From assembly GCA_022601195.1 (NCBI GenBank), contig JAHZIX010000052.1, positions 1 to 64,000 on the forward strand: 64,000 nucleotides of DNA, written 5' to 3'. The translations under genes were made by a program, and so were the position numbers. Below the pieces are notes generated by a model. It ran no database searches. It saw only the letters and a list, made by a program, of their open reading frames with translations, and had not been told where the DNA came from. Below, piece after piece: positions 1 through 16,411 of this stretch. How positions within the stretch are numbered: position 1 is the stretch's first letter; each line of letters begins with the position of its first letter. This stretch comes from Deltaproteobacteria bacterium. GTDB taxonomy: Bacteria > Acidobacteriota > Thermoanaerobaculia > Multivoradales > JAHZIX01.

Positions 1-108
1 CGGCGCCATTACAATGAAGTCCGCCCTCACTCAAGCCTTGGGTATCGGACCCCGAATGAGTACAAAGCAGATCTAGATCGAGCAAATCTGGGAGCCGTTC
101 TCAAGTAA
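1..108 (+). mobile_element. C-terminal fragment of an IS3-family (rve integrase core) transposase, truncated by window edge
   Basis: Frame 1 reads RRHYNEVRPHSSLGYRTPNEYKADLDRANLGAVLK*, with the typical 'YNxxRPHSSLGYxTPxEY' C-terminus of IS3-type transposases. Missing from the ORF track because it has no start. Confidence 0.88.
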
Positions 109-799
109 CTGGTGGTCCAGAGAAATCAGGCAAGCCAGGCCAAGAAATAAGTTCCATTGTTCAAGCATTGATTGAAGGAATTGTTCGCTGCCTGTTCACA
201 TTGCTACCTTGCATTGTCACAGTCACCAAGGCAGGTTGCTTCTGCCGATATGAAAGGTAAAGCCAATAGAATGGTACCGAAGACCATCACCATCACTCTG
301 ATTTTCCCAACTCTCATTTCATCTTCCCTTTCGAGTGTAAAGGCTGTCCTCTCGGTAGCCGGTTTTCGGAGCCACCGCGAGTCTCTCCAGCTTGTTCAAA
401 GTACTATCTCGAGGCCGGAACTTGCTGAATTCTTGCAAGTTCGAGAAACCTATGACAGGTCGTTCTTGAGATCTTCAAGGTCCGACACAGATGTTCGGCC
501 AACCCCATACACAGTTAGGTGAAAAAGCGCCATCTACTGGATCAACAAAGCTAATATTTCTCCAGAAATCTCAGATGCAGGTAGCAGGCTATATTCGTGA
601 ACCCCTGACCCTAAGGGCAGATTCTCACGCTACCCGTCCAGCAGCCTGTGGTGAAAATCGCTTGGCGACGAAAACGAGGACTCTATTGATGGATCGAGGC
701 GAAGAACCGGAGGCAAACCCGAGGTTTCTCGAAGATTCTCAAACGAAGAGCCGTCACTTGAGAACCGACTAGAGCCAGGGAGGTTTTCGCCACAGGCTG

Positions 800-4637: not shown

Positions 4638-4686
4638 TGGATTTCGATCGGCTTGACCGCCAAAACCTGGAGAGCACGAAACGCCC

Positions 4687-6135
4687 GTGGCCAGTAACCG
4701 AGAAACCAACAACCGAAGACTTAGCAACCGAGGCACCAGTCACCGAGCACTGCTTCGCCCCATCGGCATCCCCGGTAAGAAGGCTCTTGCCCCGCTGGCT
4801 GTGTTGTTGGTAGCTGCGTCCCAGGTACTGGCCCAACAACCGGATGTCGGCGAGATCGTGAGTCGATACGGTCTGCGCCCGGTCTCTCCACCCTCCCCTG
4901 CTGCAAATTTCAGTCTTCCAGACCTGTCCGGGGGCCAAGGTGCGCTTTCGGACTACCAAGGCAATTGGGTGCTGCTCACCTTCTGGGCTACCTGGTGTGG
5001 CCCTTGCCGCACCGAGATGCCGAGCCTCGAAGAAGTCCACCGACAACGCGCTGACTCTGGCCTGACGGTGCTCGGGGTGTCCATCGATTCGGACCGAGCT
5101 CCCGTAGCGCCCTTCGTCGATAATATGGGCCTCACTTTTCCGATGCTGTGGGACTCCAAAGGACAGATGGCGAGCGCCTACCGGGCTACCAGCATTCCAT
5201 TGAGTTACTTGATCGATCCCCAAGGCCGCATTGTCGGCGTCTCCAGGGGGGCTCGCAATTGGACCGCCCTGCTGCCGATGATCGACGCCATGATCGCCAC
5301 CCAACCCGTAGACGGCAGCACCCCTCCCCCGGAGCCCGTCTATGCCCAGGACGACGGCCCCGTGGATCTGCCCTCGGTGCTCGACCCGCCTACCGCGGAG
5401 ATCGTCCTCTCGGAACCTCATCCCCAACCCGGCAAAGGCTTTTTTCTCGAAGTTCAACTGCAGTGGGCCGGCAACTTTGAGGAGTACCTACCTCATCCTC
5501 CAGAGGTCTTTCTCCCCGAGGGCATCACCCCGGGCAGGATGACCGCCGCTAGCAGTAGCCGAGATGGCAGCAATCTGGTGACCTACCGGCTCGCCCTGGA
5601 GGCGAGCTCTCCAGGCTCCTATGCTCTGGACCCGGTGGAATTGCGCTACACCCCCCGCTTCGAGTCGGTCCCGGTGGCCAGTCGATTGACCGGTCCGACG
5701 GTAGAAGTGCGCCCTCTCCGAGTGATGGGGGCCAAGGCCCTTGCCTTGACCCTCGGCGGCGGGGGATTGGGAGCCATCGCTCTGCTCGCTCTACTTTGGT
5801 TTCGCCGCCGGCGAGCCATCCCATCCGGTTCCAGCGACGACCCTCATTATGAGAATCTCAGGAGCCGATTCGAACAAGCCAGGGCCCATCGTCTCAAAGG
5901 GGAAGGTCCTGCCTATGCAACGGCTCTAGGATTGTTGGAGCTAGAGTTGGGGCCAGAGAGTGAATCCCAGGGCGCAGCCCTTCAACAGATGGTCGAACAG
6001 GCCCGCTACGGAGGGCGCGTTCCACCCAACGAAGAAATGACCCGTCTGGAGCGCCGTATCGAACGCCGCCTAGCGGAGCTTCGGCCAGACCCCAGGAAAA
6101 CAGAACGCCAAGCGTTGCGGCTGCGCGACGAATAG
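4687..6135 (+). CDS. TlpA-like thioredoxin-domain protein fused to a C-terminal BatD-like membrane-anchored region
   Basis: VLLTFWATWCGPCRTEMPSLEEV (thioredoxin CxxC), then a beta-rich segment, TM helix ALALTLGGGGLGAIALLALLWFRRRR and a cytosolic helical tail; next to Bat genes. Start codon uncertain. Confidence 0.75.
   Translation: MASNRETNNRRLSNRGTSHRALLRPIGIPGKKALAPLAVLLVAASQVLAQQPDVGEIVSRYGLRPVSPPSPAANFSLPDLSGGQGALSDYQGNWVLLTFWATWCGPCRTEMPSLEEVHRQRADSGLTVLGVSIDSDRAPVAPFVDNMGLTFPMLWDSKGQMASAYRATSIPLSYLIDPQGRIVGVSRGARNWTALLPMIDAMIATQPVDGSTPPPEPVYAQDDGPVDLPSVLDPPTAEIVLSEPHPQPGKGFFLEVQLQWAGNFEEYLPHPPEVFLPEGITPGRMTAASSSRDGSNLVTYRLALEASSPGSYALDPVELRYTPRFESVPVASRLTGPTVEVRPLRVMGAKALALTLGGGGLGAIALLALLWFRRRRAIPSGSSDDPHYENLRSRFEQARAHRLKGEGPAYATALGLLELELGPESESQGAALQQMVEQARYGGRVPPNEEMTRLERRIERRLAELRPDPRKTERQALRLRDE
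4691..4750. repeat. 15-bp degenerate tandem repeat, 4 copies
   Basis: ccagtaaccgagaaa / ccaacaaccgaagac / ttagcaaccgaggca / ccagtcaccgagcac. Confidence 0.7.
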
Positions 6136-6187: not shown

Positions 6188-7177
<990 letters not shown>

Positions 7178-7253: not shown

Positions 7254-8177
7254 ATGAAACCGGTGGAAACAGGTCATCATGAGGTAGACCTGGATGCGGC
7301 CCTCTCCCCGGAGCTGTTCCAGAAAATCAAGGCGATTCAGATCCGTACCCAACGGGTCGTCAACGAGGTCTTCGCTGGCGAATACGAGAGTGCCTTCAAG
7401 GGTAGAGGTATGGAGTTCGAGGAGGTACGAGAGTACCAACCCGGAGACGATATTCGCCACATCGACTGGAACGTCACTGCTCGCATGAGCGCTCCCTTCG
7501 TCAAAGTTCACCGGGAAGAACGTGAGCTCACCGTCATGCTGTTGGTCGACGTTTCGTCCTCCGGCGCCTTCGGCAGTGGCACCAAGCTCAAGAACGAAGT
7601 CGCCGCAGAGGTGGCAGCGCTCTTGGCCTACACCGCGATCAAGAGCAATGACCGAGTCGGCCTGATCATCTTTTCTGATCGCATCGAGCACTATATTCCG
7701 CCCAAGAAAGGCCGCGCCCATGTTTGGCGGGTCATCCGGGACATCCTGACTTTCCGCCCCAGCCGGCGAGCCACGGATCTGGAAGGGGCTCTCGAATATA
7801 TGAGCAAAGTCACTCGCCGCCGGGCAGTGGCTTTTATCATTTCGGATTTCCTCGACGAGGGCTTCTCGGACCGCTTGCGAGTCGTTTCTCGCCGCCATGA
7901 CGTCACCGCGGTCACCATCGGAGATCAGCGGGAGATGGAGATGCCTCGTATCGGTATCCTCGAGTTGGAGGACGCCGAGACCGGTGAGACCATTCTGATC
8001 GACACCTACGACAAGAATGTCACCGACGGATTCCGCCTCTTGAGCCACGACCAGCGCACCAACCGCAACGATTTCTTTCGCTCCGCAGGTGCCGGTGAAG
8101 TGGCGGTGAGAGCTGACGACCCCGACTACGTGGAGTCCTTGGTGCGGTATTTCCATTCAAGGGAGCGAAGGAGATGA
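7254..8177 (+). CDS. DUF58 domain protein (VWA-like)
   Basis: GRGMEFEEVREYQPGDDIRHIDWNVTARMSAPFVKVHREERELTVMLLVDVSSSG. Confidence 0.95.
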   Translation: MKPVETGHHEVDLDAALSPELFQKIKAIQIRTQRVVNEVFAGEYESAFKGRGMEFEEVREYQPGDDIRHIDWNVTARMSAPFVKVHREERELTVMLLVDVSSSGAFGSGTKLKNEVAAEVAALLAYTAIKSNDRVGLIIFSDRIEHYIPPKKGRAHVWRVIRDILTFRPSRRATDLEGALEYMSKVTRRRAVAFIISDFLDEGFSDRLRVVSRRHDVTAVTIGDQREMEMPRIGILELEDAETGETILIDTYDKNVTDGFRLLSHDQRTNRNDFFRSAGAGEVAVRADDPDYVESLVRYFHSRERRR

Positions 8178-8238: not shown

Positions 8239-9291
8239 TTGCTTGCCGTGATGGAGCTTAGACGTCCACCCCATACCGACGAGGGCCCCCGGCCCGACCG
8301 CACCGTACGGATTCTCCTGGTGCTCAACCTTCTCCTGCTCTTGGGGCTCGGTGCCTGGTTGTACTCGCGCTCCGAGGGCGGGACGTCCCCTGCGGAAGCG
8401 GAGAGAGATCGTCAAGTAGCCAGCAAGCTCAAGGCGGCCGGCGCCTTTGATGAAGCGGCGAGCCTCTTCGAGAAATACTTGGGATCCGGCCAATCGTCCG
8501 GCGAAGCCCGCGCCAAGATCGCCTATTCCCTAGGGACCACCTACCTCGATCGGGGCCAGTACGAAAGGGCTCTGAGGTGGTATTACGAAGCGGAAGCCCT
8601 CGGCGCCGGGAGTCTCGCCGGAGAAGTTGGACAGAAGATTGTCCACTGCCTGGAGCGACTCGGTCGCCACCACGCCGCCAAGGCGGCCTTGAGCTCCCGG
8701 GTTCAACTCGCCGCGGATCCGGTCCAACGCTCTGAAGCAGACCCCATCGTGGCCCGCATCGGTGAAAATGAGATTCGCCGCTCCGAGGTCGAGAGGACTC
8801 TCGATGACCTGCCTCCGGAAGCGGCCCGGGCCTTTGCTGACCCAGCCCGGCGTGGCGAGTTACTCAAGAAATATGTTGCCGATGAGCTGATCTGGCGGAA
8901 GGCGACCCGACTCCAATACGACGATGACCCGGAAGTGCGTCAACGTCATGCGGCCTTGCTCAAACAATTAGCGGTGAGTCGCTTCGTAGAACGAGAAGTC
9001 CTGGGCAAGATCGAAGTGGATGAGGCGGACCTCAAGACTTATTTCGAAGCCAATGCGGCCCGCTACCAAGAGAGCTCCGGAGGACCTGATGGGCCTAACC
9101 AAGCGGGCCAAGGGGCCGGTGATCGGCCTCCCCTGAGCTTTGAGCAAATGCGCTCGGCAGTGGAACGGGATTACCGGATCTTCAAAATGCAGGCCGCCTA
9201 CAACTCAATGATCGAAGCGGAGCTGGCCACCGACGACGTAGAGCTCTTCCCGGAACGCATGACGAGCCCGGAGGGCAAAGATGCTCCCTAA
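8239..9291 (+). CDS. Membrane-anchored TPR-like/SurA-N-like protein lacking a parvulin domain
   Basis: N-terminal TM; VARIGENEIRRSEVERTL...GELLKKYVADELIWRKA...VDEADLKTYFEANAARYQ; Gly/Pro linker where the PPIase domain would be. Confidence 0.7.
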   Translation: MLAVMELRRPPHTDEGPRPDRTVRILLVLNLLLLLGLGAWLYSRSEGGTSPAEAERDRQVASKLKAAGAFDEAASLFEKYLGSGQSSGEARAKIAYSLGTTYLDRGQYERALRWYYEAEALGAGSLAGEVGQKIVHCLERLGRHHAAKAALSSRVQLAADPVQRSEADPIVARIGENEIRRSEVERTLDDLPPEAARAFADPARRGELLKKYVADELIWRKATRLQYDDDPEVRQRHAALLKQLAVSRFVEREVLGKIEVDEADLKTYFEANAARYQESSGGPDGPNQAGQGAGDRPPLSFEQMRSAVERDYRIFKMQAAYNSMIEAELATDDVELFPERMTSPEGKDAP

Positions 9292-10405
9292 GACCAGAGG
9301 ATTTCAAAACCTCCTGGTGGTGGCTCTCGCCATGGTCGTCGCCTGCGCGGAGGCCCCAGCCCCCGTCGCCGTCGAGGAACCCAAGGCTCCCGTGGAGACC
9401 CAGGCTGCTGTGGATCGGGCCGTAGCCACCACGGGGGACATCATCACCTACACCGTGACGGTCGACTACGACGCTTCTTTGGAGGTCGACATACCGGAGC
9501 CTGGAGCCGAAATTGCCGGGTTTCGTATCACCGACCTGGGCAAGGAAGACACTAGGGAGGCGGAAGGACGGATCGTGGAGGAACGCTGGTACAAGCTGCG
9601 AGCGGACCTGGTTGGCTCCTATGTCTTGCCTCCAGTAGCCGTGAGCTACTCCCCGATCGTCGCAGCAGCGCCCCTGGAAGAGCAGCAGGCAGCTGAGACT
9701 GAGGCAGCTGAGACTGAGGCAGAAGAGGAGGTCACAATGAGACCTCGAACCGTGGAAACGGTGGAGACCTCGGCCATCTTCGTAGAAGTAGAATCCGTGC
9801 TTCCGGAAGACGGCGTCGAGTCGGCCGACATCCGCGACGTCAAACCCTTACGCCAGGTGAAGGACCAGCAGCCTTGGGGCTGGATCGGCGCTGGCATTCT
9901 CGCTCTATCAGCAGCCATAGCCCTCTTCCTCTGGTGGCGGCGACGCCCCGCTAAGGTCGTGCCTCCGGTACCGGCTCACGAGCTGGCCTTTCGGGCCCTC
10001 GATGAGCTGAGAGACACCAACTTCGAAGATGCCGAGGCCGTTCGTAGGTTCTATTTTCAGATTTCGGAGGTGGTTCGCAACTACGTGGAGGGGCGCTTCG
10101 GACTCAATGCCACCGACCTCACCACCGAAGAAATTCTTCCTGCTCTCGAGCTCCTGCCACAGCTTTCCCAACAGCCGGCAGAGGATCTCCGCAGCTTCCT
10201 GCTTCACACGGATCAGGTCAAATTTGCCGACCAGACCCCGACCGAAGAAGACATCAAGAACACCTACGAGAGCGCCCTCGGCTTTGTCGAAGCGACTCGG
10301 CCGACGGAGAGCGAGCTCGAGATGGCTGCAGAAGATTCGTCGGGCACCACCGAGTCCGAGCCACCGACCAAAGACGACAACTCCTCCCGGGAACAGGCGG
10401 CATGA
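9281..10405 (+). CDS. BatD-like/DUF4381-like lipoprotein with TM segment
   Basis: Lipobox-like VVAC; beta-sandwich segment; TM WGWIGAGILALSAAIALFLWW; helical tail with FYFQISEVVRNYVEGRFGLNATDLTTEEIL. Confidence 0.75.
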   Translation: MLPKTRGFQNLLVVALAMVVACAEAPAPVAVEEPKAPVETQAAVDRAVATTGDIITYTVTVDYDASLEVDIPEPGAEIAGFRITDLGKEDTREAEGRIVEERWYKLRADLVGSYVLPPVAVSYSPIVAAAPLEEQQAAETEAAETEAEEEVTMRPRTVETVETSAIFVEVESVLPEDGVESADIRDVKPLRQVKDQQPWGWIGAGILALSAAIALFLWWRRRPAKVVPPVPAHELAFRALDELRDTNFEDAEAVRRFYFQISEVVRNYVEGRFGLNATDLTTEEILPALELLPQLSQQPAEDLRSFLLHTDQVKFADQTPTEEDIKNTYESALGFVEATRPTESELEMAAEDSSGTTESEPPTKDDNSSREQAA

Positions 10406-11436
10406 GCGACCTTTTCTTCTCCGATTTCGGGCTCCTGTGGTTTCTCGTTCCGGCTTATTTGCTGTGGGTTGCTGCCTGGTTGGTCCTTCCTTGGCTGGCC
10501 ACAAAACGGCGGCGGGCTGCTGCCGTTCGCTTCTCCAATATTCAGCCTCTGCAGCGGCTGAAACCATCTCGTTCCCTCCTACTGCGGCGACTGGTCATGG
10601 GACTGCGCTTGGTCACTGTGGCCCTATTGGTCCTGGCCATTGCTCGCCCTCAAACGGGCCGCAAGCAAACTCACGTGCGCACCGAGGGCATCGATATCGT
10701 TCTGGTGCTGGACACCTCCGAGAGCATGCTGGCTCTCGATTTGGATGCGGAGAGAGCCATCGCTCAGAGACGCAACCGATTGGAAGTCGCCAAATCGGTG
10801 GTCGTCGACTTCGTCAAGAAGCGGGAGAATGATCAAGTCGGTCTCGTGGTGTTCGGCAACGAAGCCTTCACTCAATGTCCCCTGACGCTAGATCACGGCA
10901 TCGTCGCTACCTTCTTGGAGCGGGTCGAGATCGCCATGGCAGGTGCGGGAACAGCCATCGGCTCCGCTCTGGGCACGGCGGTCAAACGCCTGAAGGACTC
11001 CGAAGCCAAATCGAAGGTCATCATTCTGCTGACCGATGGACGCAACAACGCCGGTTCCCTCAGCCCCCTCAAAGCGGCGGAAGTCGCCAAGACTTTCGGT
11101 ATCAAGATCTACGCCATCGCCGCGGGCACCCGAGGCAAAGCGCCATTCCTGGTGGACTCCTTCTTCGGCAAACAGGTGGTCTACGAACACGTGGAGATCG
11201 ACGAGGAAACTCTGACCAAGGTGGCGGAAACCACCGGAGGCTTGTACCAACGGGCCGAGGACAAGAACGCCTTGGCAGCCATCTACGACCAGATCGATGA
11301 GTTGGAGAAGACCGAGATCACCATGGACACCTACATGGAGTACAACGAGCGCTTTCGCTGGTTCGTGATTCCGGCCCTAGTACTCCTCCTACTGGAGGTG
11401 CTGCTCTTGGGAACCCGCTTCAGGAAGCTGCCATGA
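10402..11436 (+). CDS. batA: BatA-like VWA protein
   Basis: DIVLVLDTSESMLALD (MIDAS), VILLTDGRNNAGSLSP, N- and C-terminal TM helices. Confidence 0.88.
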   Translation: MSDLFFSDFGLLWFLVPAYLLWVAAWLVLPWLATKRRRAAAVRFSNIQPLQRLKPSRSLLLRRLVMGLRLVTVALLVLAIARPQTGRKQTHVRTEGIDIVLVLDTSESMLALDLDAERAIAQRRNRLEVAKSVVVDFVKKRENDQVGLVVFGNEAFTQCPLTLDHGIVATFLERVEIAMAGAGTAIGSALGTAVKRLKDSEAKSKVIILLTDGRNNAGSLSPLKAAEVAKTFGIKIYAIAAGTRGKAPFLVDSFFGKQVVYEHVEIDEETLTKVAETTGGLYQRAEDKNALAAIYDQIDELEKTEITMDTYMEYNERFRWFVIPALVLLLLEVLLLGTRFRKLP

Positions 11437-12575
11437 TGAGAACGGAAAAGATCGAGCCGATCGAAAAAGGCCGGCAACAGGGTCGCGGAAGGGCTGTGCT
11501 ACGAGCTGGACAGAAGGCTCTTCCAATGCTCCTCCTAACTGGCTGCTCGGAAGTTCAGGTAGGAGACCCACCGTCTTTGTGGGCTCTGTGGTTGGTGCCG
11601 GCATTATTGGCCTTCTACATCTATTCCTTTCGCACCAAGACTCGGCTGCTGCGCCGATTTGCTTCGGCGGAAATGTTGGCTCGGCTGACCTCGGGCGTGA
11701 GCCGGCCGCGGCAGTATTTCAAGGCTGCCCTCGTGCTCCTCGGCCTCACCGCAGGCATTCTCGCCTTGGCCGGACTGCGCTATGGATTCACCTGGGAAGA
11801 GGTGAAACGAGAAGGGGTAGACATCGTCGTAGCACTAGATGTCTCGGACAGTATGCTGGTGGAGGACGCGGAGTCCGGCGGCAAATTGAGCCGTCTCGAG
11901 AGAGCCAAACGAGAGATCACCGACCTGCTGCGCCTCATGGAGGGCGACCGCATCGGATTGATTGCCTTTGCCGGCACCGCCTTCATCGAGTGCCCTTTGA
12001 CCCTCGATTACAGCGCCGCAGAGATTTTCCTCGACGCCATTTCCACGGACCTCATCCCGGTCAAGGGTACGAATTTGGGCGATGCCATCGACTCGTCTCT
12101 GGAAGCCTTCGAAGGAGCTTCGCATCCGTCTCGCGCGGTGGTGTTGATCACCGACGGCGAAGATCACACGAATAGCGCCCTGACTGCCGCCAAGAAGGCG
12201 AAGGTCGCTGGAGTCCGCATCTTCACCATTGGCATCGGTCGTGACGAAGGAGCCCCCATTCCTGCTCCAGGCGGTGGATTTCGCCGCGATCGGCAAGGCA
12301 ACATCGTGCTCTCCAGACTCGATGAGACAACCCTGCAAAAGGTCGCCTTGGAAACCGGCGGTAGCTATGTCCGGTCGGTCACCGGGGATGTCGACCTGGA
12401 ACAGATCTATTCCCAAGGCATCAAGGCGACCTTGGAAGATCAGGAGCTTGGCTCCAAACGCCGGCAACGTTGGGAAGAAAGATTCCAGTGGGTCCTAGCA
12501 CTCGCTTTGATGGCTCTCATGCTGGAACCGCTGATTTCCGAAAGGTGGCGCCGTGGAGGAACGACCCGTGCTTGA
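11433..12575 (+). CDS. batB: BatB-like VWA protein
   Basis: DIVVALDVSDSMLVED (MIDAS), AVVLITDGEDH; overlaps the upstream stop (ATGA). Confidence 0.88.
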   Translation: MMRTEKIEPIEKGRQQGRGRAVLRAGQKALPMLLLTGCSEVQVGDPPSLWALWLVPALLAFYIYSFRTKTRLLRRFASAEMLARLTSGVSRPRQYFKAALVLLGLTAGILALAGLRYGFTWEEVKREGVDIVVALDVSDSMLVEDAESGGKLSRLERAKREITDLLRLMEGDRIGLIAFAGTAFIECPLTLDYSAAEIFLDAISTDLIPVKGTNLGDAIDSSLEAFEGASHPSRAVVLITDGEDHTNSALTAAKKAKVAGVRIFTIGIGRDEGAPIPAPGGGFRRDRQGNIVLSRLDETTLQKVALETGGSYVRSVTGDVDLEQIYSQGIKATLEDQELGSKRRQRWEERFQWVLALALMALMLEPLISERWRRGGTTRA

Positions 12576-13686
12576 GATTCTTCACCACCGTGCAGGGCCC
12601 TCGCCAGGAACTCGCCGCCGAATCGGCAAGCCAACTAGAGGCCTAGCGCTGATCGTGATGGCGGCGGTCTGCTCTTCTCTCGGGGCGCCGATCTGGGCTC
12701 AGACCGCTCCCCCGGAGCCGGCCTCAGCAGATCAAGGAGCCCCGCCGGAAGCTTCCAGCGATCCGGCGCCAGCAATCACCAATACGTCTCCCCAGCAATT
12801 CGACAGTCCCTATGAAGCTTACGAAGCGGCGATCTACGACCAGGCTCTGCAAGGTTTTATCGACGACCAGGTGGAACGGCCAGAAGACCCCGAGCTGGCT
12901 CTCAACATCGGCAATAGCCACTACAAGATGAAAAACTACCCGGAGGCCGAGAAGGCCTTTGGTAGCGCAGCCTTGGCTGGAGACCCGGTCGTTCGAGAGC
13001 AAGCCCTTTACAGCCTCGGTAATTGTGCCTTCCGTCAAGGGAAGCTAGAAGACGCCGTAGAGCTCTACAAAGGAGCTCTCGATCTCGACCCGGATGATGA
13101 GGATGCCAAGTTCAACCTGGAATTCGTCCGCAACGAAATCCGCCGCCGCCACGAAGAGAACCAGAAACGCCAGGAAGAGCAACAGCAGCAACAGCAGGAC
13201 GGCGAGCAGCAGCAGGACCAGCAGGGGGAACAAGGGGAACAGGGAGACCAACCCCAAGACCAGAATCAACAGGGCGAGCAGCAACAGCAAGGCGGTCAAG
13301 ATAGCGATCAGGATGGACTTCCAGACCAAGTCGAAAAAGACGCCGAGAATCCGACGGATCCTCAGAACCCTGATACCGATGGAGACGGCCTACCTGACGG
13401 TCAGGAGGACGAGAATCGCAACGGGAGAGTCGACGAAGGCGAGACCGACCCCAACCAGCAGGATACCGACGGTGATGGAGTTCCCGATGCCCAAGACCAG
13501 CAGCCTACCGATGGTCAGCAGCCACCACAGCCCCAGGAGGGAGAAGAGGCTCAGGCCCAGGAAGCTCCCGAGGGGCTGACTCCGGAAGAGGCGGAGCGCT
13601 ATCTCCAGGGGCTGGAAGAAGGTCGTCCTGAAAAAGGAAAACCGGATCAGCGAGGCCGTCGCAGCCGGCCGGCGAAGGATTGGTAG
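12553..13686 (+). CDS. batC: BatC-like TPR protein with polyQ region and thrombospondin type-3 repeats
   Basis: TPR (ALNIGNSHYKMKNYPEAEKAFGSA), QQQQQQ-rich tract, DSDQDGLPDQVE...DTDGDGLPDGQED...DTDGDGVPDAQD. Confidence 0.82.
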   Translation: MEERPVLEILHHRAGPSPGTRRRIGKPTRGLALIVMAAVCSSLGAPIWAQTAPPEPASADQGAPPEASSDPAPAITNTSPQQFDSPYEAYEAAIYDQALQGFIDDQVERPEDPELALNIGNSHYKMKNYPEAEKAFGSAALAGDPVVREQALYSLGNCAFRQGKLEDAVELYKGALDLDPDDEDAKFNLEFVRNEIRRRHEENQKRQEEQQQQQQDGEQQQDQQGEQGEQGDQPQDQNQQGEQQQQGGQDSDQDGLPDQVEKDAENPTDPQNPDTDGDGLPDGQEDENRNGRVDEGETDPNQQDTDGDGVPDAQDQQPTDGQQPPQPQEGEEAQAQEAPEGLTPEEAERYLQGLEEGRPEKGKPDQRGRRSRPAKDW

Positions 13687-15518
13687 AGATGAGCCCAGGG
13701 CAAAAACACCCGTCAGGAGCGGCATACCTTAACCGCAGCCTTGTTCGCCTCGCACTTCCTCGTCTCACCGGAGCAGCCGGTCACGGTCACAGGACCCAGG
13801 TCTGGTGGCAGCCTTGGGTCGTGCTCGCTTTCGCCTTGGCTGTCCTCGCCCCTGCCGCCGAAGGGCAAGGGCTGAAGGCAAATATCAGCCGGACCCAAGC
13901 GACGACCCAAGACCAGCTTCTTCTAACCCTCACCGTTTCTGAATCCAGTGGCTCCGTACCCGTTCTACCGGAACTGCCGGACTTTTCCGTCATCCCTCGT
14001 AGATCCTCCAGCCAGGTGAGTATCACCAACGGAAGGAGAAGCTCGAGCATCTCCCACAACTACATCCTGGTTCCCAAAAGAACCGGCACCTTCACCATTG
14101 GACCCGCCACCGTAGAGATCAGCGGCAAGACCTACCAGAGCAACACCATCCGAGTGAGAATTCTGGACGCTGCTGCTCAACCGCAGGATAGCCGCGACGT
14201 CTTCGTCACCGCAAAGGTGTCCGACGACAAACCCTATGTGGGTCAGCAGATCCTTTACACCTGGCGCTTCTACCGGAAGGTGCAAGTTGGAGATGCTCAA
14301 CTAGGGCCGCAGGACTTCAGTGGCTTTCTCAGCGAAGACTTAGGCGAGGCCAAGCAGTATCAAACCACCGTCAACGGCCAACAATATGTCGTCCACGAGA
14401 TTCGTAAGGCCCTTTTCCCCCAAGAAGCGGGCCAGCTGACAATTCCCGCTTCCGAGCTCACTTGTCAGGTCATGGTACGCAGCCGAAGGCGCTCCCGAAG
14501 CCTGTTCGACGACTTCTTCGGGGCCACAAATGCCCAGACGAAGGTGCTGCGCACCAAGCCCATTGGCATCGAAGTCCGTCCCTTACCCGCAGCAGCTTCC
14601 GGTTTCTCCGGCTTGGTAGGCCAGTTTCAAGTCTCCACGAAAATCAACAAGAACCAGCTTCGGGTGGGAGAATCCGCGACCTTGAGTCTCACCGTTTCTG
14701 GACGTGGCAATGTTCAAATGATCGGTGAGCCTTCCCTCGGAGAGCTGTCCGGTTTCAAAATCTACGATGACAAACCCACGAGCTCGACGAGCCGCACCGA
14801 CTCTGGCCTCTCCGGGCGAAGGCTGTTCAGCAAGGCGATGGTGCCCCTCGAGGTCGGAGAGCTCACTATTCCCAGCGCTCGCCTGGTCTATTTCGATCCG
14901 GAGGCCGGCTCCTACCGCACCGCTGCTTCCTCCGCCATCACCCTTCAAGTCAGCCCAGCGGAAGGCGAGGAAGACCTTCGCCTTACCGAATCGGTAGCCC
15001 CGACCACGGGAAAGGTCGCAGTGAAGATCTTGGCGGACGATATTCTGCCGCTGCACAAGGGTCTCGATGCAGTCGCTCGCCCGCCCTTCGGAGCCACTAC
15101 CCCCACCCTCACGGTGGGCCTCGCAGTCCCCATGGTGGCCTTTCTAGGCTTGTTCGCCGCGCAGAGGCAACGACGCAAGTTTGCGCTGGATAGTGGCCTG
15201 AAACGCCGCAAACGAGCCCTAAAAACCGCTCAGAAAAACCTCGGTGAGATGGACGCGGGAACGGCTTCAGCTCCGCAAGCATCCCTCATCCTGAGGACCT
15301 ACATCGGCGACAAACTCAATATTGAGGGCAGCGCTCTGACTCCCCAGGAAGCCCAGAACCACCTCACTGCAAAAGGAGTGAACGAGGAGCTCGCTACGCA
15401 AACCCGTCAGCTTCTGGAAGGGTTCGAAGCGTCTCAATATGGCGCCGGTGATGTAGAAACCGGTACTCTCCGGGAGCGCATCGAAAGCCTCGTCAAGCAG
15501 CTGGAAGGACATCTATGA
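13680..15518 (+). CDS. batD: BatD (oxygen tolerance) family protein
   Basis: QLLLTLTVSESSGSVPVLPELPDFSVIPRRSSSQVSITNG...; GLVGQFQVSTKINKNQLRVGESATLSLTVSGRGN; C-terminal TM. Confidence 0.88.
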   Translation: MVEMSPGQKHPSGAAYLNRSLVRLALPRLTGAAGHGHRTQVWWQPWVVLAFALAVLAPAAEGQGLKANISRTQATTQDQLLLTLTVSESSGSVPVLPELPDFSVIPRRSSSQVSITNGRRSSSISHNYILVPKRTGTFTIGPATVEISGKTYQSNTIRVRILDAAAQPQDSRDVFVTAKVSDDKPYVGQQILYTWRFYRKVQVGDAQLGPQDFSGFLSEDLGEAKQYQTTVNGQQYVVHEIRKALFPQEAGQLTIPASELTCQVMVRSRRRSRSLFDDFFGATNAQTKVLRTKPIGIEVRPLPAAASGFSGLVGQFQVSTKINKNQLRVGESATLSLTVSGRGNVQMIGEPSLGELSGFKIYDDKPTSSTSRTDSGLSGRRLFSKAMVPLEVGELTIPSARLVYFDPEAGSYRTAASSAITLQVSPAEGEEDLRLTESVAPTTGKVAVKILADDILPLHKGLDAVARPPFGATTPTLTVGLAVPMVAFLGLFAAQRQRRKFALDSGLKRRKRALKTAQKNLGEMDAGTASAPQASLILRTYIGDKLNIEGSALTPQEAQNHLTAKGVNEELATQTRQLLEGFEASQYGAGDVETGTLRERIESLVKQLEGHL

Positions 15519-16411
15519 TGAACCGAGTGTTGCTCCTCGCAGCCCTGATCGTCTCGGCCAGCTGCTGGGGTCTGTTCCCTCTCCAAGCCTCCTCCTTCGA
15601 CTCCGATGCTTCCTCCTTGCAGGAAGAGTCGCCCCCTATCGAGGCGAGGGAAGAGATGGAAGAAACACCTCTCCTCTCCATAGACGATTCCGAAGAATCG
15701 AAGGTTCGGACCGAGCCAACGCAGGAATCGGGGGAAATTTTCATCAACGCCAATGCTGCCTATGAAGCGGGAAACCCTGCGGAAGCCATCGCTGGGTACA
15801 ACGAGCTCCTCAGTCGGGACTCACAGGCCGGACACCTCCTCTACAATTTGGGGAACGCCTACCTACGCAACGGTGAATTGGGCCGGGCAGTCGCCTCTTA
15901 CCGCCGAAGTCTGGCGGTCCTGCCTCGAGACCAAGATGTCAAAGCGAATCTCTCCTTCGCCCGCAAGAGCAGCCGCGACGCCATCGCCCCCCCGGAGCCC
16001 TCTGCTGTGCAGTCGACCTTGCTCTTCTGGCACTACGGGCTCAGTCGAGGGGAGCTAGCTCGGGTTGTCTTGTTGATCAACCTGCTTTTCTGGACGGCAC
16101 TGGCCTTCAGGCTCACCCGATCCGAATCCGAGATTCTGCGCTGGCTGGTGATTTCGCTACTGATCGTGCTTCTTGTCACGGGTAGCTCCTTGCTAATACG
16201 TCAATTCCTTCCGCGGCAAATTGCCGTCATCGTGCCTCAACAAGTCGATGTCTTCAACGGTCCAAACCTCGAAGAGGCGGTCCGCTTCAAACTACATGCA
16301 GGCACCGAAGTTCGACTCGAAGACCAGCGCCCCGAGTGGCTGCGGATCTCCCTTCCCGATGGTCAGCAGGGCTGGATACAGAAATCGTGGGCTGAGCTGA
16401 TCGACCTTTGA
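15515..16411 (+). CDS. batE: BatE-like TPR/SH3 membrane protein
   Basis: FINANAAYEAGNPAEAIAGYNELL...HLLYNLGNAYLRNGELGRAVASYRRSL; TM helices; SH3-like C-terminus VFNGPNLEEAVRFKLHAGTEV. Confidence 0.85.
   Translation: MMNRVLLLAALIVSASCWGLFPLQASSFDSDASSLQEESPPIEAREEMEETPLLSIDDSEESKVRTEPTQESGEIFINANAAYEAGNPAEAIAGYNELLSRDSQAGHLLYNLGNAYLRNGELGRAVASYRRSLAVLPRDQDVKANLSFARKSSRDAIAPPEPSAVQSTLLFWHYGLSRGELARVVLLINLLFWTALAFRLTRSESEILRWLVISLLIVLLVTGSSLLIRQFLPRQIAVIVPQQVDVFNGPNLEEAVRFKLHAGTEVRLEDQRPEWLRISLPDGQQGWIQKSWAELIDL

Follow-up and report, generated by a model that had tools for sequence, protein, structure and literature searches.

A TlpA-type thioredoxin domain fused to a BatD-like membrane anchor at the head of a Bat operon

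Introduction

Thiol:disulfide reductases of the ResA/TlpA class are fed by CcdA/DsbD, and ResA and TlpA are held in place by an N-terminal anchor. MoxR ATPases act together with VWA partners, and NorQ/NorD and RavA/ViaA are cytosolic pairs of this kind. The Bat (Bacteroides aerotolerance) operon comprises MoxR, DUF58, BatA, BatB, BatC, BatD and BatE, and we know of no Bat component that carries out redox chemistry. It has been reported that TlpA reduces ScoI and COX II (PMC6696091). MoxR/VWA pairs remodel client proteins and, in the case of NorQD, drive metal insertion in NOR (PMC13036017); the abstracts on NorQ/NorD and RavA/ViaA mention no thioredoxin component.

The function of the Bat operon, which is widespread, is unsettled. 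Its name comes from an aerotolerance mutant that was partly rescued by reducing agents, and later phenotypes are absent or conflicting. The partial rescue is described in PMC3557215 for a B. fragilis bat mutant, as is a proposed role of Bat in reducing periplasmic proteins or exporting reducing power. Leptospira biflexa bat mutants showed no oxidative-stress phenotype (PMC3557215), which counts against a universal redox role of Bat. The oxidative-stress literature is mixed, with the L. biflexa result standing against those for B. fragilis and Riemerella (PMC11834572).

Here we describe a Bat operon from a genome assembly of a Deltaproteobacteria bacterium, which GTDB places in the Acidobacteriota. 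The analysed stretch of 64,000 nucleotides (contig JAHZIX010000052.1 of GCA_022601195.1, positions 1 to 64,000 of the forward strand) is referred to as the window. Its operon holds the complete Bat set (MoxR, DUF58, BatA-E) plus two extra genes: relative to related Bat operons it adds a TlpA fusion and a TPR/SurA-like gene, here called gene 4. Both halves of the fusion are known families and Bat is a known operon; their fusion is the new part. No earlier description of a TlpA-BatD-like fusion was found in the literature searched, most subscription papers being outside its scope.

Results

Features of the operon and of the fusion protein are listed in Table 1.

Table 1. Genes of the window's Bat operon and segments of the fusion protein (nucleotide positions refer to the window, residues to the fusion protein)
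Feature	Position	Strand	Details
TlpA-BatD-like fusion protein	4687..6135	+	482 aa, GTG start, 0 internal stops
Fusion: export signal	residues ~31-49		Signal helix 34-48 in AlphaFold model
Fusion: ResA/TlpA thioredoxin domain	residues ~64-204		W103-C104-G-P-C107, E110, cis-Pro P171
Fusion: linker	residues 205-235		Flexible, pLDDT ~70
Fusion: BatD/DUF4381-type beta-sandwich	residues 236-341		AlphaFold model
Fusion: TM helix	residues ~361-375		Followed by RRRR; model and sequence
Fusion: cytosolic alpha-helical tail	residues 386-481		AlphaFold model
MoxR AAA+ ATPase	6188..7177	+	PF07726, 217.8 bits
DUF58 protein, VWA fold	7254..8177	+	PF01882, 271.8 bits
Gene 4: N-terminal TM, TPR repeats, SurA-N-like segment	8239..9291	+	
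DUF4381/BatD-like single-pass protein	9281..10405	+	PF14316, E 0.0011, below cut-off
BatA, membrane-anchored VWA	10402..11436	+	
BatB, membrane-anchored VWA	11433..12575	+	
BatC, TPR, acidic/Gln-rich tail	12553..13686	+	
BatD, three DUF11-like domains, TM, helical tail	13680..15518	+	PF13584, 143.8 bits, 3 stretches
BatE, TPR + SH3, last operon gene	15515..16411	+	

The initial annotation had proposed that an intact WCGPC domain is followed by a beta-rich segment, a TM helix and a cytosolic helical tail, and this layout was recovered in an AlphaFold model built from a 24-row alignment (mean pLDDT 83.8). With its signal helix and its TM helix followed by RRRR, the protein is predicted to be periplasmic and membrane-tethered. 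Its first ~30 residues were non-conserved (pLDDT < 50), which leaves the start codon uncertain, and the true start may differ from the annotated one. The DNA around the annotated GTG (4640-4760) is repetitive and rich in ACCGAG/ACCAAC, and a scan upstream of the fusion found no sigma-70 promoter.

The redox domain matched PF00578 (AhpC-TSA) with 101.9 bits over residues 71-183 (cut-off 26) and PF08534 (Redoxin) with 71.6 bits. The top Foldseek match for the model was B. subtilis ResA (E 1.4e-12, TMt 0.90), and the matches further included mixed-disulfide complexes of TlpA with CoxB and ScoI. The active-site Cys pair was kept in 23 of 23 fusion proteins, while W103, E110 and P171 were invariant in a 16-member alignment and at least 90% conserved in a wider one. 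Judging by spacing, E110, three residues after the second Cys, presumably occupies the position of ResA Glu80. The protein thus carries every feature tested for the ResA/TlpA class: the fold with the AhpC-TSA/Redoxin insert, WCxxC, Glu at Cys2+3 and the cis-Pro loop. It shares these features, and export, with ResA, TlpA and CcmG (DsbE), but its anchor is C-terminal, with a BatD-like beta-sandwich and a cytosolic tail added. The CGPC motif alone leaves the direction of the reaction unfixed (reductase, isomerase or oxidase). A tree keeping the TlpA domains of the fusions together outscored a free quick tree (p-AU 0.73), which is compatible with a single origin.

The window protein's own C-terminal half gave no match to BatD, DUF4381 or any other Pfam family beyond the redox domain; its kinship to both emerges through family profiles. 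Using hhalign, the profile of the C-terminal half aligned with the DUF4381-like family at 97.6% (E 3.3e-12, 231 columns) and with BatD at 97.2% (E 2.9e-11, 239 columns), the latter alignment spanning the last beta domain, TM helix and tail of BatD, and controls from the same operons were null (BatA 0.2%, gene 4 0.7%). The Pfam BatD model (PF13584) matched this half in 18 of 24 members at E <= 0.5 (best E 5.2e-8), and its curated cut-off of 24.1 bits was exceeded by one fusion (L091, 28.0 bits) and by the head protein of locus L159, which is unfused (33.5 bits). These profile matches and controls support the relationship to BatD/DUF4381 suggested in the initial annotation and rule out an unrelated origin of this half. 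With BatD (PF13584) and DUF4381 (PF14316) proteins the fusion shares the beta-sandwich, the single TM helix, the helical cytosolic tail and the operon; we call it BatD-like, not BatD, because the model has one beta domain where BatD has three, and it further differs in its extra catalytic-type N-terminal domain and its location at the operon head. A search of solved structures with the C-terminal profile gave no convincing match, its best result being unrelated membrane proteins at E 0.039, and a fold search with a model of the DUF4381-like protein gave weak Ig-like/TRAP-type matches only and no BatD structure.

The fusion heads a ten-gene operon with all genes on the + strand. MoxR starts 53 bp downstream and is followed by DUF58 and later by BatA and BatB, and the fusion does directly precede the MoxR-DUF58-VWA genes, as originally described. 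Gaps of 53-77 bp at the beginning of the operon give way to overlaps, and the next long genes after BatE lie on the opposite strand. The VWA proteins of the window are predicted to be periplasmic, in contrast to the cytosolic NorQ/NorD and RavA/ViaA pairs. Within the operon, the DUF4381-like family was closest to the C-terminal half of the fusion, and a matching layout is predicted for the DUF4381-like protein (export helix, beta-sandwich, TM helix and helical tail). Neither the gene-4 protein of the window nor the other Acidobacteriota members that were examined had a PPIase domain, which suggests that in this phylum it serves as a chaperone and not as an isomerase. This domain was clear in three Bdellovibrionota orthologues (L015, L155 and L158) and missing in several others.

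One cysteine stood out. BatA C159, in the motif QCPLT, was kept in all 20 operons of the window's subtype examined (13 of 13 with the fusion and 7 of 7 related ones without it) and in 1 of 7 other operons, and it was the only conserved cysteine in the remaining operon proteins of this subtype. As the Bat proteins are otherwise almost without conserved cysteines, there is no obvious Bat-internal substrate. C159 is a candidate for trapping, not evidence, because the related fusion-less operons also keep it.

Within the window's order, 16 of 72 genomes carried the fusion; it was also present in 8 of the 235 Bdellovibrionota genomes and in one Schekmanbacteria-labelled MAG (L014). The first count leaves out G589, whose match was rejected as the DUF4381-like gene of a Bat operon. 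The initial annotation had called for a survey of the fusion beside MoxR and had allowed for a frameshift or an assembly artefact. In Acidobacteriota and Bdellovibrionota the fusion recurs in that position. Among all copies with adequate flanking sequence, it precedes MoxR except in L014 and L016. Independently assembled genomes from several phyla yielded the fusion, intact and conserved (23 fusions from Acidobacteriota, Bdellovibrionota and the Schekmanbacteria-labelled MAG), so a frameshift, chimera or assembly artefact can be dismissed. Eight Bdellovibrionota loci, L015 among them, have the whole operon collinear with that of the window; in L152, BatB and BatC form one frame and BatE is joined to BatD. 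Besides, L016 (9878-11209) is a second, orphan copy with WCGTC, away from any MoxR or Bat gene; the Bacteriovoracaceae genome that bears it has the operon copy L015 as well. Matches of the C-terminal profile in family f4 (G014, G027, G039, G043 and G051; E 1e-5 to 5e-4) were rejected; the three f4 loci that were read (L121, L123 and L124) were frames antisense to a conserved gene, outside the Bat operon.

Fusion and gene 4 occurred together. Among 235 Bdellovibrionota genomes, where the full-length gene-4 type was defined by a score above 250 bits, 8 had both, 227 had neither and none had one alone. Of 59 genomes of the window's order, 12 had both and 45 neither; one (G050, 81% complete) had the fusion only, and one (G038, 89% complete) had gene 4 only, its operon contig beginning inside the DUF4381-like gene. 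Fisher p-values were 5e-15 for Bdellovibrionota, 1.5e-10 for the order and 1e-6 for operons of the same Bat subtype; these values are descriptive, since they ignore relatedness and the tree needs few independent events. The initial annotation had missed this co-occurrence. In genus g5 of family f4, the Bat operons of G036 and G042 had all other genes and were without fusion and gene 4. At locus L159 (5236-7547), an otherwise similar Bat operon that carries gene 4 is headed by a BatD-like protein lacking the redox domain, with a double-PPIase gene upstream of this head; no separate TlpA gene was found within 17 kb. This arrangement suggests that the pair of head protein and gene 4 may be older than the fusion.

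With regard to descent, a BatA-like protein was present in 208 of 235 Bdellovibrionota, and the window's subtype was confined to the 8 that bear the fusion (BatA scores of 549-580 bits, the runner-up scoring 314). No TlpA head was present in four standard Bat operons of Bdellovibrionota that were retrieved and annotated. In a tree of MoxR, DUF58, BatA, BatB and BatD, the Bdellovibrionota fusion operons were sister to the Acidobacteriota ones, and fusion-less Acidobacteriota operons were placed beside fusion-bearing ones with support of 78-100. The latter placement fits a joint loss of fusion and gene 4; another f4 genus (G587) retains a fusion. The presence of the fusion-bearing subtype in both phyla could reflect horizontal transfer or ancient duplication. 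Most Bat operons, among them related f4 operons from the window's order, are without the TlpA domain, which therefore belongs to one subtype as an accessory and is no part of a general Bat mechanism.

Discussion

The reading that we favour, at a probability of roughly 55%, is that the fusion is a Bat-tethered periplasmic thiol:disulfide reductase, a ResA/TlpA-class enzyme on a BatD/DUF4381-type anchor that holds the redox site at the Bat complex. Its redox direction, its client and its physical contact with Bat are what we infer. The signal peptide would export the N-terminal half and the C-terminal helix would anchor the protein, both according to predicted topology, with the BatD-like tail in the cytosol, probably beside MoxR/DUF58. 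The CGPC pair would be held reduced by a DsbD-type transporter, the gene for which is present: it was detected in 12 of 12 genomes tested, and because these included genomes without the fusion, its presence does not discriminate. Homology to BatD and the structure of the operon suggest that the beta-sandwich docks the enzyme to the periplasmic proteins BatA, BatB and BatD. By analogy with NorQD, ATP-driven remodelling by MoxR/VWA might expose or load an envelope client, the TPR/SurA-like chaperone encoded by gene 4 might hold it, and the TlpA domain might reduce its cysteines much as TlpA acts on CoxB/ScoI. Its targets could include metal-ligand thiols that await a cofactor, or thiols damaged by oxidation. 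Such a reductase agrees with the rescue of the B. fragilis mutant and with the proposal on reducing power described in PMC3557215.

The initial annotation had seen a covalent link between periplasmic thiol redox and a MoxR/VWA system as a handle on the term 'aerotolerance'. At the level of gene architecture this link holds; that it accounts for aerotolerance is an interpretation. The fusion gives Bat a defined redox active site, open to mutation, trapping and assay, and makes the old idea of Bat handling periplasmic thiols directly testable. The co-occurring SurA-like gene 4 is a second testable partner and points to envelope client proteins. A tentative extension, which we hold to be possible though somewhat unlikely, is that in this subtype the Bat MoxR/VWA proteins form a machine that uses ATP for thiol repair or metallation in the envelope, with the fusion as its electron-delivery arm and gene 4 as its client-holding chaperone. 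If true, this would put in molecular terms the suggestion, made in 1999, that Bat supplies periplasmic proteins with reducing power, and in other Bat systems the corresponding step would fall to separate thioredoxins.

The strict co-occurrence with a TPR/SurA-N/PPIase gene is also what would be expected of a folding hub, in which the TlpA domain, alongside the SurA/PpiC-like product of gene 4, isomerises or oxidatively forms disulfides, and MoxR/VWA supplies secreted or outer-membrane proteins as clients. The clear PPIase domains of L015, L155, L158 and the gene upstream of the L159 head are in line with this, as is H. pylori HP0377, a CcmG-class relative that is reported to be both reductase and isomerase (PMC5909903). 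However, Acidobacteriota orthologues and several others have no PPIase part, and the invariant Glu at Cys2+3 and ResA as the best fold match favour the reductase class; we rate this reading as fairly improbable.

We consider it unlikely that the protein is instead a redox sensor, in which oxidation of CGPC would change the periplasmic domain and be passed on through the TM helix and the tail to MoxR/DUF58, so that oxidative stress activates the ATPase. The single-pass layout and the conserved cytosolic tail would suit such a role, Bat has been tied to oxidative-stress responses in Riemerella (PMC11834572), and a sensing role was left possible in PMC3557215; but the full catalytic set (W, C, C, E and cis-Pro) is kept, which is enzyme-like rather than sensor-like, and the flexible linker argues against rigid signal transfer. 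Very doubtful is the view that an ordinary TlpA for cytochrome c or CuA maturation merely borrowed a BatD-like anchor and has no working link to Bat, for although orphan copies away from MoxR exist (L014 and L016) and these genomes encode many other TlpA-like proteins, the position at the operon head is kept across phyla, the cytosolic tail is kept though an anchor needs none, and the fusion is absent from the 227 of 235 Bdellovibrionota without this Bat subtype.

Some minor features of these loci were also observed. In genus g16 (L011, L012, L013 and L186), a separate small TlpA-like gene lies ~1.7-1.9 kb upstream of the fusion on the opposite strand, and on contig C42 of G503 (L154) a DsbD-type gene lies ~4 kb past the end of the TlpA-headed Bat operon. 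Lipobox-like N-terminal cysteines were seen in the DUF4381-like protein (LVVAC, residue 22) and in BatB (LLTGC, residue 38), making lipidation of both proteins possible; these cysteines were present in 5 of 13 fusion operons and in 7 of 7 related operons without the fusion.
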